Shown here: one piece after another, positions 28,347-35,197 of the stretch | Position numbering within the stretch: the stretch's first letter is position 1 | Layout: each line of letters opens with the position of its first letter | Assembly: GCA_951828535.1 (NCBI GenBank) | Contig: OX639990.1 | Span: 1,785,300 to 1,849,299 of the forward strand | Direction: 5' to 3' | DNA from: an uncultured Candidatus Entotheonella sp. | GTDB lineage: Bacteria; Tectomicrobia; Entotheonellia; Entotheonellales; Entotheonellaceae | DNA: 64,000 nt | Made by a program: the position numbers and the translations under genes | Notes under the pieces: model-generated | The model's input: the letters and a program-made list of their open reading frames with translations, nothing else | The model's database searches: none | What the model was told of the DNA's origin: nothing

Positions 28347-28402
28347 GGACGAACCGTCGTCGGATCAACGTGGTTCTTTCATTTGGGAATTTATATGCCT
28401 AT

Positions 28403-29419
28403 CTACGTTGAAAATGTCGCGTTCCTGACTTTCTCCTCTATGTGCGAAAACCATTTCCCAATTTCAGCCCAACTTGCCAGATTTTCCAGGTTGATCGAGA
28501 GTTGCAAATCGAGCAGCGTCCTGTCCGTTTCATCATAGCCCCAATTCTTATGTGTATTCGTTTCTGGGAAATCGGCTAGTAATCGATTCGCATATCTATT
28601 GATCGACCTTTGTCTCTGTTCTCTTCGCCAACCCTTGACGCACCATGCACCAACCCGTATTCTTGCCTCACCCATGTCAATGCTCTTTGAAATATATACA
28701 TTCTGATGCTTATCAAGACTAAAACTTGTCGTTCGATGCTGTTGTCCATATCGATTCTAAAATTCATCCATTAACATTCTTCTAATGTTTCGTTCTTCTT
28801 GTGAAAACAAGATACGTTCTAGTTGAACTTTCGTGGGGCCTAAATCTAACGAGAGAAGTAGTTGGCCAGTATCTGCACTGCGATCTATTCTCAATAGGTA
28901 GTAGATCGCACCGTCAGGCTTTGATTCGTTTTTCCAGTTTTGTTCGATAATCAAACGGCGAAATTTTTTGCTGAAATGTGCAGCTATCCATATTCTGATC
29001 CTCGCTTGCAGATCCTCACCATAAGAAATTAACTGCTGGAAATGCCTCGTGTTGGCTGCTTCTATCTGATTCTCAATTACGACTTTCGACTTGCTCTTGC
29101 TTTCCCATGCTACGATGTCTGCCCGTCCACCTGCGGCAGCAACCTCTGTCCCTAAATGGTGTAATTCCAATCCAGTACAATCTGACACCAGTTCCAAATG
29201 TCCTTCGAGCCAGGGCGTGAAGTCATTAGCTTCATGCTGCCATGTTTCTCGGATCCAGTTTGACTGGCTCATGGAGACGCTCTCCCCAAGCGGTGTCCGG
29301 CTTGCCGGGAGCGTCCTCAACCCTCGGTTTTCCGCCGACTTTGCTTCCTGCAGACGCACCGCCTCTTTCTCATCTTGCCTCCTTATATGCTCCGCCCTCT
29401 GTCGTTCTTGCTGTTCCCG
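28403..29419 (-). pseudogene. 3' part of an IS-split gene: coiled coil plus PD-(D/E)XK/DUF4268-like nuclease domain
   Basis: Read from 29419 downward, the frame continues the charged coiled coil (EQQERQRAEHIRRQDEKEAV). It then enters an enzyme-like domain: NWIRETWQHEANDFTPWL, GRADIVAWESK and VVIENQIEAANTRHFQQLISY, a D...ExQ variant of the PD-(D/E)XK core, as in DUF4268-containing proteins. It stops at TAG 28757-28759. The same frame then stays open for another 117 codons (FSLDKHQNVYISKSIDMGEAR...LENLASWAEIGKWF) to 28403 and looks like the remaining DUF4268 part. A start at ATG 29272 (MSQSNWIRETW) could still yield a 171-residue free nuclease domain. See the findings for the reconstruction. 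Confidence 0.75.
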
Positions 29420-29460
29420 TGGAGTTGCCCCGTTTCCGTGGACAGTTGATAGCTTGGCAT

Positions 29461-30309
29461 TTAAGCAGCTTGTTGATGGCTCCTCTCGAAGTTTAGTGGC
29501 GACAGGTAGCCGAGGCCAGAGTGACGACGGTGTGGGTTGTACCAGCCTTCTATGTATTCGAAGATCGCCATGCGGGCCTCAGCTTGGGTACGGAATACGC
29601 GCCGGTCAATGAATTCGCATTCAAGGGTGGCGAAGAAACTTTCCGCCATAGCGTTGTCAAAACAGTCACCTACCGAACCCATGGACGGCGCGACGCCCAT
29701 CTCTCGGCAGCGTTTCCCGAACGCGTAGGACGTATATTGGCTACCTTGATCGCTGTGATGAACGACGCTGCCTGGACGGCGTTGCCACAGCGCCATGTTC
29801 AGCGCCTCGAGCACCAGCTCGGTGCGCAGGTGATTGGCCATCGACCAGCCCACAACCCGCCGGCTGAAGGCGTCGACGACGACCGCCAGAAACAGGAATC
29901 CGGCCCAGGTCGGCACGTAGGTGATATCGGCCACCCACAGAAGGTCAGGTGCATCGGCTTCGAACCTGCGCTCAACGAGGTCTGGAGCTGGACGAAGCCT
30001 GTGGTCGCGGCGCGTGGTGCGTGTTCCCTTGCGTCTGGATACCCCGACCAGGCTCATCTCTCGCATCAACCTGGCCACGCGCTTGCGACCGATATGGATA
30101 CCGTCGGCGGCAAGCTCGGCGTGAATTCGAGGTGCTCCGTAAGTGCCGCGGCTGCGATGATGGATGTTGCTGATGCAAGCCTTGAGGACAGCATCGTATT
30201 GCTGGCGAGGCGACAACTCACGGTCTCGCCAGGCGTAGTACCCGCTCGGGGAGACGCCGAGCAAACGGGCCACCTTGGCGATGGGGTAACGGGCCTGATT
30301 CGCTCTCAT
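29461..30309 (-). CDS. IS3-family transposase orfB (DDE integrase)
   Basis: This 282-residue catalytic subunit has the HTH_21-like N-terminus (YPIAKVARLLGVSPSGYYAWRDR) and the rve domain with the DDE triad: Asp in LLWVADITYVPTWAG, Asp in VVHHSDQGSQYTS and Glu in DNAMAESFFATLE. The C-terminus is YNPHRRHSGLGYLSP. Its start overlaps the orfA stop by 4 nt. The natural product is probably an OrfAB fusion made by -1 frameshifting, as is usual for the family. Confidence 0.93.
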   Translation of the reverse strand: MRANQARYPIAKVARLLGVSPSGYYAWRDRELSPRQQYDAVLKACISNIHHRSRGTYGAPRIHAELAADGIHIGRKRVARLMREMSLVGVSRRKGTRTTRRDHRLRPAPDLVERRFEADAPDLLWVADITYVPTWAGFLFLAVVVDAFSRRVVGWSMANHLRTELVLEALNMALWQRRPGSVVHHSDQGSQYTSYAFGKRCREMGVAPSMGSVGDCFDNAMAESFFATLECEFIDRRVFRTQAEARMAIFEYIEGWYNPHRRHSGLGYLSPLNFERSHQQAA

Positions 30310-30620
30310 GAACTCGAAGGCTTTGCGGGTACCGAGCCGGTCTCCCGAGCAAACCAGGCCGTGGCTTTTGCCAGTATCTCGCGCTCAAGACGCAACTGAC
30401 GGTTTTCACGGCGTAGGCGGCGAAGCTCATCGCGATCGTCGCTCGTCAGGCCGTCGTCACGGCGGCCTTCGTCGAGGTCGGCCTGGCGGACCCACTTGCG
30501 GATGGTCTCCGCACAGCACTCGAAGTCGCGGGCCAGTTCCGTAGCAGATCTACCTGAGCGAACCAGCTCCACCATCTGGTGGCGAAACTCAGGCGGGTAT
30601 GCGGGACGTGTTCGTGGCAT
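30306..30620 (-). CDS. IS3-family transposase orfA (helix-turn-helix)
   Basis: This 104-residue DNA-binding subunit has an HTH (YPPEFRHQMVELVRSGRSATELAR, ETIRKWVRQADLD) and a leucine-zipper-like region (DELRRLRRENRQLRLEREIL). It lies just inside the right terminal repeat. The tail ARETGSVPAK overlaps the beginning of orfB, where frameshifting would join them. Confidence 0.92.
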   Translation of the reverse strand: MPRTRPAYPPEFRHQMVELVRSGRSATELARDFECCAETIRKWVRQADLDEGRRDDGLTSDDRDELRRLRRENRQLRLEREILAKATAWFARETGSVPAKPSSS

Positions 30621-30674
30621 CGTGGATTCCTCCTCCCAAAAGGATTAGGTATCCACGAAAGCGGGTCAACTCCA

Positions 30675-31059
30675 CCCGTTCTTTTACCGTCCTTTCCTCC
30701 TCCAGCCGCGCTACCACTTCCAATCTTCTTTCTTCTTCTGCCTGCCGCTCCGCCTCCAGCAATCTTGCTTGCTCGTCTCTCTCGAGTTGTTTCAACTCCT
30801 CTGCCTTTCTTCGCTTCTCTTTCCTCCTGCTTAGGACCATCCCTATCATCGCCGTCGCTACACATATGGGTACGAACCAGAGCGCCGGCAGCATAGCCAC
30901 GAATTCCGAGAAATCCGACGCTTCCCACCAAACTCCGATAAGACACAGTGCCACAAGTAACAGCAAGAACTTCAACTGCGCTGCCGCTTCCCATCTCCTT
31001 TTTTCTTCTGCCCGCCGCTTCGTTTCCAACGATCTTGCTTGCTCGTCCTTCTGGAGTTG
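30675..31059 (-). pseudogene. Middle part of the IS-split membrane/coiled-coil gene
   Basis: Between the two insertion sequences the minus strand stays open in one frame. It reads QLQKDEQARSLETKRRAEEK, then two hydrophobic segments (LKFLLLLVALCLIGVWW and FVAMLPALWFVPICVATAMI), then RRKEKRRKAEELKQLERDEQ and a Glu/Arg-rich coiled coil up to EEERTVKER. It joins in frame to 32330-32651 upstream and to 28403-29419 downstream once both elements and one copy of each 4-bp duplication are removed. Confidence 0.8.
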
Positions 31060-31125
31060 TGACCCAGCCCCTTGAATCCGGGCCGCGATGATGTAGAGTC
31101 CCTTGGAGCTGGGAGGATGGACTCT

Positions 31126-31389
31126 ATGAAGCGTAGATTCACGGACCAGCAGATCATCGCCATGATTCGGGAACAAGAGGCTGGCTTGAAGACCTCCGAG
31201 GTGTGCCGCAAGCATGGCATCAGCGACGCCACCTTCTACAAGTACAAGGCCAAGTTTGGTGGCATGACCGTCTGCGATGCGCGAAGGCTGCGCGCCCTGG
31301 AGGCGGAAAACGCCAACCTCAAACGACTCCTGGCCGAGGCCATGCTGGACAACGCCGCCCTGAAGGAGCTGGCGACAAAAAACTTCTGA
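31126..31389 (+). CDS. IS407-like transposase orfA
   Basis: This 87-residue HTH subunit reads [44 protein letters not shown] and [20 protein letters not shown], which closely matches IS407-group OrfA proteins. I chose the ATG at 31126 because GGGAGG lies 9 nt upstream. An upstream ATG at 31117 overlaps the same site. The end of the frame contains the frameshift heptamer AAAAAAC at 31377-31383. Confidence 0.93.
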
Positions 31390-32270
31390 CGCCCGACGCC
31401 AAGCGAAGAGCCGTGCGTCACGTGATGACGATACACGGCTTGAGCGAGCGGTGGGCGTGCAAGCTGGTGGCGCTGGATCGCTCCACGTTCCAGTATCACA
31501 AGAAGCCGGGTACGGACGCGGCCCTGAGAGAGCGGCTAAAGATTCTGGCCGGCGAGCGCCGCCGGTTTGGCTATCGGCGCTTGGACATCCTGTTGAGACG
31601 TGAGGGCTGCGTGGTGAATCACAAGAAGCTCTTTCGCCTCTATCGTGAAGAAGGGCTTACCGTGCGACGCAGGCGGGGCCGCAAGCGGGCTTTAGGGACG
31701 CGCAAGCCCAGGGTCGTGCCAAGTCGCCCCGATGAGCGCTGCAGCCTGGACTTCGTCTCCGATAGTCTTGCCGATGGGTGTTGGTTTCGGGCCTTGTGTA
31801 TCGTCGATGACTTTTCGCGCGAAACCTTGGCCATCGTGGCGGATTTCTCGCTCTCAGGGGTTCGTGTTGCCCGAGAGCTGGAGCGCATCATCGCGTTTCG
31901 CAGCAGACCTGCGTTGATCGTCTCCGACAACGGCACCGAACTGACCAGTCATGCGGTCCTCAAGTGGTCGCAGGAAGCCAGGATCGACTGGCACTACATC
32001 GCGCCGGGCAAGCCGACGCAGAATGCCTTCGTGGAGAGCTTCATCGGCAGGCTGCGGGACGAATGCCTCAATGAGCCCTTATTCACGACATTAGGCGAGG
32101 CGCGCAACCTCATTGAAGACTGGAGGCGGGACTACAATACGACCCGGCCGCACAGTTCGTTGGGCGGCCTGCCGCCAAGCATCTACGCCGGCCTCAGGTG
32201 TATTGACGGGCATGCTGAACGTGAGTTGTTTCATGGCTCTACGCCGCAGGCCCTGACAGCGGCGTTGTGA
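31377..32270 (+). CDS. IS407-like transposase orfB (DDE integrase), expressed by -1 frameshift
   Basis: This catalytic part of about 297 residues has a helical N-terminus ([40 protein letters not shown]). The rve domain has Asp in [15 protein letters not shown], Asp in [12 protein letters not shown] and Glu in [18 protein letters not shown]. It lies in the -1 frame relative to orfA and has no good start codon near the junction. The A AAA AAC heptamer at 31377-31383, in the correct register for tandem tRNA slippage, would give an OrfAB fusion. Confidence 0.92.
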
Positions 32271-32329
32271 AGAGCAACGATCGTGAACAGACTCTACTAT
32301 CCAATGGCAGGAACTAGGGGGCTGGGTCA

Positions 32330-32651
32330 GTTGTTCTAACTCCTTTGCCTTTCTTCGCTTCTCTTCTAACGCGAGCAACGCCATCGCCACACCAACGGAT
32401 ATCACTATGAATATAGCTGCCCCAATCATCTTTACCCCGAAAAGCGCCATCAGCGCTCCAGCGGGTATCACTGCCGTGACTATCCAAAGCAGAGCGAAAA
32501 CCATCACCTTCCTACTCCTGACCTTCCGATAAGAGGGGTTATCAGGACCTGCCAGCAGCTCCGAGGTCTGGCCAGTGGTATGTCGGTCAAGGGTCTCAGC
32601 CGTTGCGATGCTACTTCCAGTTTTCTGCTGGGGCTTGCAGACAGCGCTCAC
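32330..32651 (-). pseudogene. 5' part of the IS-split membrane/coiled-coil gene
   Basis: The frame starts at a GTG (32649-32651), or slightly upstream where it is open to a stop 27 nt earlier. It encodes a polar N-terminus of about 48 residues, two membrane segments (VFALLWIVTAVIPAGALMAL and MIGAAIFIVISVGVAMALLA) and the start of a charged linker (EEKRRKAKELEQL), where the IS407-like element interrupts it. It lies 33 nt downstream of the 364-residue Cys/His protein gene and was probably co-transcribed with it. Confidence 0.75.
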
Positions 32652-32684
32652 AATGCCATCAATGATTTTCGGTGATCGCTAAGA

Positions 32685-33779
32685 TCAGAAAAAGTTGGGA
32701 AGGCGGCTCGACGGTTGATTAAACAGCGTTGGCTGACGCATCCGCCTTTCTTGCTTCATCCACTCCTGAACTTCCTCTTGCTCTGTCGCAGACCACGATT
32801 GGTAGAGCGACTCCTTCATTCCGATTTCATCAGAGAGTTCCCAGATTTTTCGGGAAATCTCCCGCTTCAAACGCTCTCCGGCTGAATTCGGTTCGTTGGG
32901 ATTCGCGCACATTGGCATGTATTTGTGGATTCTCACGATGTCCGGTAAAAGGCATCGCACGCCTGTCTCGCAGGCTGTGATGATAGCGTGTCCGTCGTGT
33001 TGCGGAATCACGATCATGTAGCCCAATTCGACATGGCGATGTCCGTTTCTTCGCAAATGGATCATCAGGCAACCCCACGCCGCCACCGTGGGCTTTGATT
33101 TCAGCAGGAACGCCCGATACTCAAGCGAGTTCCATTCTTCGCTCGCCAACCGTCGCTTAAGATCACGCATCTTCCCCATCACCGCATGTGCTACGTCTCT
33201 CCACTCCTCCCAGGCGCTAGTCGCTTTTTCGTCGCTTACGGGCGTCGAGAACGCTGTTTCCTTGAACCGTTTCCATCCTTCCTCCGTTTGTGTTCCCATA
33301 AAATTCGCGTTCCATCGTGCCAGCATCAGATGGTTTTGGCGCAAAACCACACGGTAGACTGCTTTGAACAGGTTCTCGGGTTCCGAGAGATCAATGTGTT
33401 GCGCGTCGATTCCCGCGAATATCTCATCGTGCCTTTGGCAGGCCCACCTTCCTGCGCTGAACTCACTGACCGGCACAAGCTGGAGAGCCTCGAGTTCCCT
33501 TGACGACTCCATAAACGTTTTATATTCCCTGTTGGCTCGAATTTTCGGATCGCGATCAGTCCTCTCCGCGATCAGTTTCAGATGCCTCCTTGCAATCGCA
33601 TGACGGCGTCCGATTTTCCCTTCGCACGGCTCCGCTGGAGCTTCGTCATGCGCTCTTATTGTTGCCATGCAGATTCCCTTGGCCACGATGCGGTCGTAGG
33701 TTTTTTTCAGGCCATCTAGCCATTTGCGCTGTTCGTCGTTATAAGGGTTTTTCCCTGTTGTAGATTCCTCATCACCCAT
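32685..33779 (-). CDS. Uncharacterised Cys/His-motif protein, possible defence-associated partner
   Basis: This 364-residue soluble protein has an N-terminal stretch with C-x17-C...GKIGRRHAIARRHL (residues 37-68) and later FSAGRWACQRHDEIFAGID and ENLFKAVYRVVLRQNHLMLARW. The spacing (C...C-x-G-x-I-x-x-x-H, then a CxxHD) recalls a family of uncharacterised, possibly zinc-binding or HNH-like proteins that I remember from accessory genome regions. I cannot confirm this without a search. The C-terminal half ends in a charged helix. The gene heads a minus-strand pair with the IS-split nuclease gene. It is intact and less GC-rich than the surrounding housekeeping genes. Confidence 0.6.
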   Translation of the reverse strand: MGDEESTTGKNPYNDEQRKWLDGLKKTYDRIVAKGICMATIRAHDEAPAEPCEGKIGRRHAIARRHLKLIAERTDRDPKIRANREYKTFMESSRELEALQLVPVSEFSAGRWACQRHDEIFAGIDAQHIDLSEPENLFKAVYRVVLRQNHLMLARWNANFMGTQTEEGWKRFKETAFSTPVSDEKATSAWEEWRDVAHAVMGKMRDLKRRLASEEWNSLEYRAFLLKSKPTVAAWGCLMIHLRRNGHRHVELGYMIVIPQHDGHAIITACETGVRCLLPDIVRIHKYMPMCANPNEPNSAGERLKREISRKIWELSDEIGMKESLYQSWSATEQEEVQEWMKQERRMRQPTLFNQPSSRLPNFF

Positions 33780-34191
33780 GACTCACCTTTCTAATAAGCC
33801 GCATTGTGTAAACTGTGCCGGGGACGGATTTCCACGTCGTTGCTGGACTTGCGCGATCTGGTACCGGAGGCATCCAGAATGCTATGCCAGGAGCCTCGAA
33901 TCCGTCAAAACGGCCCATCTGTGGGGGGCCAAGCTCACAATCAGCCCATTTGCGGCCCCCAGATGGGGAATTGGGTGCGGCCGCGGGCCGCGCGACGTTC
34001 GGGTCGCGGGCTTGGCAGCTCCTGCCCGGGCCATGTCGAGCAACTCCACTTTCGACAAAAAGTGAGCCGCCACCCCACCAATCCGCACACGACGCCCGAA
34101 AAAAAACGCCACGGGATCGTTCAGGTGCGACTTTTCCGACCAGGACAAGGTCTCAGTAGAGGAGAATTCGCCGCAGAGCGGGGCCACATGC
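33780..34191. other. Non-coding stretch with a strong inverted repeat
   Basis: No convincing gene is present. The inverted repeat CCCATCTG...GGGGGCC (from 33914) with GGCCCCC-AGATGGG (to 33967) forms a stem of two 7-bp helices separated by a small bulge, with a loop of about 23 nt and no T-tract. It may be a transcript end, a small RNA element or part of a mobile-element end. Confidence 0.55.
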
Positions 34192-34491
34192 TTACTCGGC
34201 ATTTTCGGGGCCAATGCCAGCTTTTTCCTCAAGGCGCGTAATACGGCCCTCGAAGACGCGCAGCACCTCCTGCATGGCATCGTGTTGACGTTGGTTTTCA
34301 GCCTGCATGGCATCGTGTTGACGCTGATTTTCAGCCTGCATAGTGTCGAACCGGCGGTTCATGTCGTCGAAGCGCCGGCTGGTTTCAGCCTGCATCGAAT
34401 CCAGCCGCCCGTTGACCTGGTTGAACATCGTCACCATCGCTACGAACAAGCCCACCAGCAACACGTAGTTGCCAACTGTCTTCCAGTCCAT
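34192..34491 (-). CDS. Small membrane-anchored coiled-coil protein with short repeats
   Basis: This 99-residue protein has an N-terminal membrane segment (VGNYVLLVGLFVAMVTMF) followed by a coiled coil made of near-repeats: FDDMNRRFDTMQAENQRQHD then AMQAENQRQHDAMQEV, ending in RITRLEEKAGIG. The DNA shows a matching tandem duplication of about 33 bp near 34265-34345. The architecture resembles DUF1640-like/phage holin-accessory proteins and the protein at 43787-44113. Function is unknown. Confidence 0.65.
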   Translation of the reverse strand: MDWKTVGNYVLLVGLFVAMVTMFNQVNGRLDSMQAETSRRFDDMNRRFDTMQAENQRQHDAMQAENQRQHDAMQEVLRVFEGRITRLEEKAGIGPENAE

Positions 34492-35197
34492 GCGGTTATC
34501 CTTTCTAGTCGCGCCTGAAGCGACGCCTCGACTGAACTTTTTCCCAATGGCCCAAGTCCAACACAGATTGCCGCCAATCTTTCGGCGACCGCAAACGCCT
34601 GGAGATCGTTGGGCAGGCTGTTGAGCCAGTCCTGATGCTTGGCCTGCAAGTGATGCAGGATTGCACGGCGTCCTGTCAATGCCGCGGACGGATGCCGCGG
34701 CCTGCGGTAGCGGATACGTGACTGTCCGGCTTTGCGGCGTCGCGGAAGCGTCTTTGTCGATCGGCGACGCTGAATCCCATACACCTGTAATGTTTCGTTA
34801 CGTAACGGGTAGTCGAATCCGCGGCTCCCCCTCTACGCTGTGATGCATCACCCCCAAAATCCCACACCCGGGGACAACATTCAACTACAAGCCAGTTGGC
34901 AGCCCCGGCTGCAATCCCAGGCTGGCGCAGGGGTGCACGGTCCCTTGCCCTGCTTAGCCGGATGACGCCATATGATGCTTGCCTTGTCCATTCGCACCCT
35001 GCGCTTGTCTTTCTGGTTGGCTTGGGGTATAGAATCGCCCATAGCCAAAAAGCCCCGATTTCATCCTCCATCGGGAAAGTTTTCGCGGGATTTCTTTTCC
35101 AAAAGGCGGATTCCATTCTTCATCGGTTCAATTTTGCCGGTTTCCCTGAATCCGGTCGTGATTCCTCACGGTCACCAAATTGATTAAAGGTTAAGAC
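34492..35197. other. Long non-coding stretch before pdhC
   Basis: Open frames here do not look like proteins. A minus-strand segment near 34600-34690 reads RRAILHHLQAKHQDWLNSLP, which could be a fragment of a larger gene, but no start or family is evident. The rest, including the pyrimidine-rich stretch around 34830-34940, holds no identified feature. This is the right-hand margin of the island, and the pdhC ribosome-binding site starts just before 35198. Confidence 0.45.

Follow-up and report, generated by a model that had tools for sequence, protein, structure and literature searches.

Two IS3-family elements split the gene of a putative membrane-tethered PDC-S11 nuclease whose anchor recurs on an HNH nuclease in an uncultured Entotheonella

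In two described proteins, a nuclease domain follows a membrane anchor and a long helical region. ShdA of the Shield system is a membrane-bound nuclease that is sufficient for antiphage immunity and whose anchor-less forms proved unclonable (PMC10270631); it has been described with a transmembrane helix and a long coiled coil (PMC11090510). Escherichia coli RmuC (COG1322) combines a membrane helix, coiled-coil regions and a PD-(D/E)XK domain, and limits DNA inversions (PMC1189080). The Shield precedent means that a membrane tether can turn a genotoxic nuclease into a usable antiphage weapon. Here we analyze a gene of comparable layout in a 64,000-nucleotide stretch, hereafter the window, of an uncultured Candidatus Entotheonella sp. 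(contig OX639990.1, positions 1,785,300 to 1,849,299 of the forward strand). The preliminary description of this DNA had considered the architecture without described parallel, a view that RmuC and ShdA contradict, since membrane anchor, long helix and nuclease are already combined in both. The source genome is a 3.62-Mb single contig, and five genomes represent its phylum in the collection used. The window copy is a pseudogene, and we favor, with some reserve, the reading that it derives from a membrane-tethered, defensive (antiphage) nuclease working like ShdA or RmuC, with an anchor shared between unrelated nucleases. The parts of the locus are as follows.

32334-32651, minus strand: gene fragment 1, an open frame with the N-terminus, membrane hairpin 1 and the start of charged helix 1; a GTG start is assumed.
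31060-32329, transposase on the plus strand: IS3-family element B, 1270 bp, with the target-site duplication GTTG at 31056-31059 and 32330-32333.
30679-31059, minus strand: gene fragment 2, an open frame with the rest of charged helix 1, membrane hairpin 2 and most of charged helix 2.
30700-30821, minus strand: uninterrupted internal charged-helix repeat unit, matching the rebuilt 30970-31059 plus 32334-32365; also repeat families D1 and D2.
29420-30674, transposase on the minus strand: IS3-family element A, 1255 bp, with the target-site duplication CCCG at 29416-29419 and 30675-30678.
28760-29419, minus strand: gene fragment 3, with the end of charged helix 2, a linker, the PD-(D/E)XK core from 29272 and the start of the C-terminal domain.

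Two IS3-family insertion sequence (IS) elements split one minus-strand gene into three fragments, read as 32651-32334, 31059-30679 and 29419-28757. When both elements and one copy of each duplication were removed in silico, a script joined the flanks in the same frame (318 + 381 + 663 = 1362 nt), yielding a single open frame of 453 residues followed by TAG and reproducing the length and frame first reported. The empty sites were compared with uninterrupted DNA from the same genome. At the GTTG site, the rebuilt copy aligned without gaps to the internal repeat 30700-30821 (84% over 122 nt), and at the DNA level no gap separated it at the junction from a paralogue elsewhere in the genome, which encodes an HNH nuclease. 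The CCCG junction was likewise gap-free against this HNH paralogue, within a 71% match of 223 nt. Because the repeat and the paralogue are two independent internal controls that both support the empty sites, chance or an assembly error is unlikely. The duplications, the preserved frame and the gap-free junctions thus bear out the proposal that one gene was broken twice.

Both elements have terminal inverted repeats, an IS3 transposase (NCBIfam transpos_IS3, 1.5e-68 for element B and 2.2e-103 for element A) and 4-bp target-site duplications, which places them in the IS3 family. Eleven full-length copies of element A are present in its own genome at 99.8-100% identity, and element B occurs there in one exact copy and in eleven further full-length copies at 81-90% identity; most of the other full-length copies show the same ends and 3-4 bp target-site duplications. 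Neither element has a copy in the four related genomes, indicating that the IS expansion in this genome is recent. Elsewhere in the genome (C1:2196319-2198428), a copy of element A (2196492-2197746) sits between two pieces of an element-B-like copy, and this flanking suggests that element A arrived later at that site.

Excision of the two elements alone would nevertheless probably not restore the protein, contrary to what was first proposed, as a premature TAG would remain at 28757.

28757-28759, minus strand: TAG, a probable nonsense mutation within the C-terminal domain, in the same frame as the open stretch downstream.
28403-28756, minus strand: continuation of the C-terminal domain after the TAG, with the likely original stop TAG at 28403-28405.

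The frame stays open for 117 codons beyond the TAG, and this stretch was free of stops in only 1 of 5000 shuffles. Its codon log-odds reached 0.02 per codon against -0.36 (sd 0.11) in shuffles, with frame +1 close behind at -0.04. AlphaFold run with an alignment placed the TAG within one of the helices of the C-terminal domain; run without an alignment on the post-TAG stretch and the preceding helix, it predicted an alpha-beta-beta-alpha-beta-beta-alpha fold. The best of the five models had block pLDDT values of 67-85 for most of the stretch; the others averaged 33-52. The best Foldseek rows for this fold were structures of the YbjN family. Against the profile of the C-terminal DUF4268 domain of relatives, the post-TAG part scored 6.9-7.9 bits, and shuffles reached 10.9-12.1. 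The TAG at 28757-28759 is thus very probably a nonsense mutation, the third lesion of the gene. Because it lies in the same frame as the stretch open to 28403-28405, the gene probably ran originally to 28403, over 571 codons before the final stop, the TAG counted; the fragment lengths of 318, 381 and 1014 nt on the minus strand are each a multiple of 3.

The nuclease part was identified by its match to the profile of PDC-S11, a candidate defence family of PADLOC (DUF4268 proteins). The match (E 5e-29) covers residues 7-129 of the 289-residue part that begins at the internal Met at 29272.

29066-29119, minus strand: putative catalytic Asp52, Glu67 and Gln69 (counting from the Met at 29272), proposed from family conservation.

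In a 62-sequence alignment, D52 and E67 were invariant and Q69 was conserved in at least 90%. Aligned with VIA-align, the predicted core came closest to the mismatch endonuclease NucS/EndoMS (Z 12.2 with 2vld and 12.1 with 5gke; rmsd 1.9-2.4 A over 102-106 residues), followed by modification-dependent restriction enzymes, including AspBHI (Z 9.7) and MspJI (Z 8.6). The NucS match comes from this second aligner, as a Foldseek search of the PDB with the nuclease model found nothing at E <=0.001. Plasmid records label relatives as DUF4268 domain-containing proteins, and 55 of the 62 alignment members match Pfam PF14088 (DUF4268), whereas the window protein does not. Of the PD-(D/E)XK-like, DUF4268-type domain first proposed, the nuclease core therefore stands as a PDC-S11 core, and the Pfam domain itself was not recovered. 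We collected 185 PDC-S11 matches from genomes, plasmids, phages and viral contigs, some at overlapping loci. The family is patchy and occurs also in plasmids and viral contigs; protein P0001, scanned singly against the viral contigs, gave no match. No membrane anchor precedes the nuclease in any of the 185 matches, and inspection of the ten with longer open N-terminal extensions or tails revealed no membrane segment.

In the window protein, four hydrophobic segments form two hairpins, one in fragment 1 and one in fragment 2, in agreement with the four membrane helices initially described. Hairpin 1 aligns both with hairpin 2 and with the HNH paralogue. From sequence reading, the basic residues RKVRSRK, EEKRRK and SRRKEKRRK lie on the predicted cytoplasmic side, and because they flank those sides, the two charged helices and the nuclease would lie in the cytoplasm, a topology that we infer. 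The charged helices consist of 58-59% charged residues, and their 3.5-3.6-residue periodicity was not above that of shuffles (1110 and 456 of 2000). Of the long coiled coil described earlier, the long charged helices remain, and the coiled coil itself, lacking a heptad signal above shuffles, does not; they may be single charged helices. Pfam matches of the membrane parts (CcmH, GlpG and others) fell below the cut-offs and were not used. Searched against 386 genomes, a model of the anchor module found three places, all in its own genome (four match rows); weak matches in other genomes (E 1e-4 at best) belonged to other proteins wherever the frames were read. The anchor had no tblastn match in plasmids, and its pattern matches in viral contigs were not confirmed.

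One of the anchors belongs to an intact gene.

C1:801099-801836 of the same genome (L232:1300-2037): intact HNH paralogue, a fusion of this anchor module to an HNH nuclease.

This paralogue holds a single copy of the hairpin and charged-helix anchor, N-terminal to a nuclease recognized by Pfam as HNH (1.4e-11) and HNH_5 (1.3e-11). Its anchor and that of the window share 71% DNA identity over 223 nt and score 39-42 bits at the protein level, against at most 21 in 200 shuffles; the identity and a score so far above shuffles show that the homology is not an effect of composition. The sister species lacks the HNH gene in the corresponding region, where similarity stops before the gene, and among the matches listed for plasmids and phages only its HNH part was matched. 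The gene is closely preceded by a ParE-type toxin gene (Pfam 1e-13) and followed, after about 0.9 kb, by a transposase-like gene. We conclude from these sequence comparisons that the hairpin and charged-helix anchor is a module shared by unrelated nucleases of the PDC-S11 and HNH types. That one genome joins homologous tethers to two unrelated nucleases suggests that tethering evolved more than once, and the HNH paralogue provides an intact gene on which the tethering idea can be tested. We propose more tentatively, and would sooner doubt than assert, that a lineage-specific, duplicable anchor module on exchangeable heads (PDC-S11, HNH) might define a family of membrane-tethered DNA-degrading defence proteins.

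The broken gene lies in a larger insertion.

28350-35184: 6.8-kb insertion (island) between the pyruvate dehydrogenase E1-beta and E2 genes.
32685-33779, minus strand: orphan open reading frame (ORF) of 364 aa on the same strand as the broken gene, ending 33 nt before it, a possible operon partner.

The E1-beta and E2 genes, which belong to a pyruvate-dehydrogenase-type operon, are adjacent in the sister species (G001, about 41 nt apart) and also in G002 and G003, and the phylum's four other genomes lack the broken gene. The insertion as a whole has a G+C content of 0.557, and its C-terminal gene fragment one of 0.463, compared with 0.62-0.63 in the flanks; at third positions it is 0.47-0.60 in the gene fragments against 0.78-0.85. 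By splitting the E1-beta/E2 pair, the insertion may affect expression of E2. A promoter and terminator scan gave no excess over shuffles. For the 364-aa ORF, no family reached a curated cut-off, and tblastn against plasmids, phages and the phylum returned nothing. A 99-aa ORF (34192-34491) combines a membrane helix with repeated QAENQRQHDAM motifs and weakly matches spanin-like and other phage families without an assigned role.

We propose that the original protein crossed the membrane in two hairpins, each made of two helices and each leading into a charged helix in the cytoplasm. This anchor would have kept the PD-(D/E)XK nuclease and the alpha/beta C-terminal domain on the inner side of the membrane, where the nuclease would have attacked entering phage or plasmid DNA, and the tether might have spared the chromosome part of the damage, a role put forward for ShdA in the Shield system. 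The gene would have been brought in by a strain-specific insertion into the pyruvate-dehydrogenase operon; two IS3-family insertions and a nonsense mutation would then have inactivated it, and the locus would illustrate how a costly accessory nuclease is lost through insertions and a stop mutation. DNA cleavage and a role in defence are inferred here. Several points weigh against this proposal. Most of the collected PDC-S11 relatives are standalone proteins of about 310 residues, whereas the window protein has an in-frame anchor; most of the family thus needs none. The usual conserved Lys of PD-(D/E)XK enzymes is replaced by Gln (ExQ instead of ExK), a change also known in active enzymes of the superfamily, such as BglII. 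No other defence gene was identified within the insertion. The literature searched offers no experiment tying a PDC-S11 protein to defence, in keeping with the candidate status given by PADLOC, and no demonstration of nuclease activity for these proteins. Finally, translation could start at the internal ATG 29272, producing an untethered nuclease.

Among the alternatives, the protein could have been a chromosome-maintenance nuclease, controlling mismatches or recombination like NucS or RmuC. Its core fold is closest to NucS/EndoMS, and RmuC, of the same overall layout, limits DNA inversions (PMC1189080). Yet none of the four other genomes in the phylum has the gene, it lies on an insertion, the family is patchy and extends to plasmids and viral contigs, and PADLOC lists PDC-S11 as a defence candidate. 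Since the gene is accessory and patchy, we favor such a role less than defence and regard it as unlikely.

Somewhat less probable still, the locus would have comprised two reading units, an anchor protein and a nuclease translated separately from ATG 29272, either in frame through an overlap or as long and short forms.

29270-29287, minus strand: internal ATG, a possible second translation start, with GGGGAG 9 nt upstream; standalone relatives begin approximately here.

The GGGGAG motif 9 nt before the ATG and the equivalent start of all standalone relatives are consistent with this arrangement, but the charged helix reaches to about 15 residues from the ATG with no stop between, and the HNH paralogue has the same anchor fused directly to its nuclease, both of which weigh against it.

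That the split is an assembly or sequencing artefact is very improbable: the genome is known from a one-contig assembly of 92% estimated completeness, but the perfect target-site duplications, the genuine multi-copy elements and the frame kept over both junctions all speak against it. Weakest is a reversible switch, in which the gene is reactivated by precise excision of the IS elements. The perfect duplications around both insertions mean that such excision would re-establish the frame at both sites, but with two independent insertions and a TAG in frame a return to activity is a remote prospect, and precise excision of IS3 elements is rare.

Returning to the tethered-nuclease reading, the duplicated hairpin anchor on a PDC-S11 nuclease, shared with an HNH nuclease, was not encountered elsewhere in the collections searched and is, as far as these show, new. 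Compared with PDC-S11 proteins, the window protein has the same core (E 5e-29), conserved D52, E67 and Q69 and an alpha/beta C-terminal domain in the same position, but it also carries a fused anchor, and PF14088 does not recognize its C-terminal domain. With NucS/EndoMS it shares the fold of the nuclease core (Z 12), whereas NucS has no anchor and the window protein has ExQ instead of ExK; the NCBIfam NucS equivalog scored only 11.9 bits (E 0.086) on the window protein, where the cut-off is 216. Nucleases are joined to long coiled coils also in CoCoNuT type IV restriction systems, but these centre on McrB/McrC homologues, and no such homologue was identified at the window locus. RmuC differs in its nuclease family, its single helix and its role in limiting DNA inversions, and neither P0001 nor the gene fragments matched PF02646 (RmuC) in Pfam. 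No Shield partner gene was found among the neighbours scanned, and ShdA of Pseudomonas, which carries an RmuC domain, is described with one transmembrane helix and PF02646 where the window protein has two hairpins. Both nonetheless have an N-terminal anchor, a long charged helix or coiled coil, a C-terminal nuclease of the PD-(D/E)XK superfamily and an accessory context.

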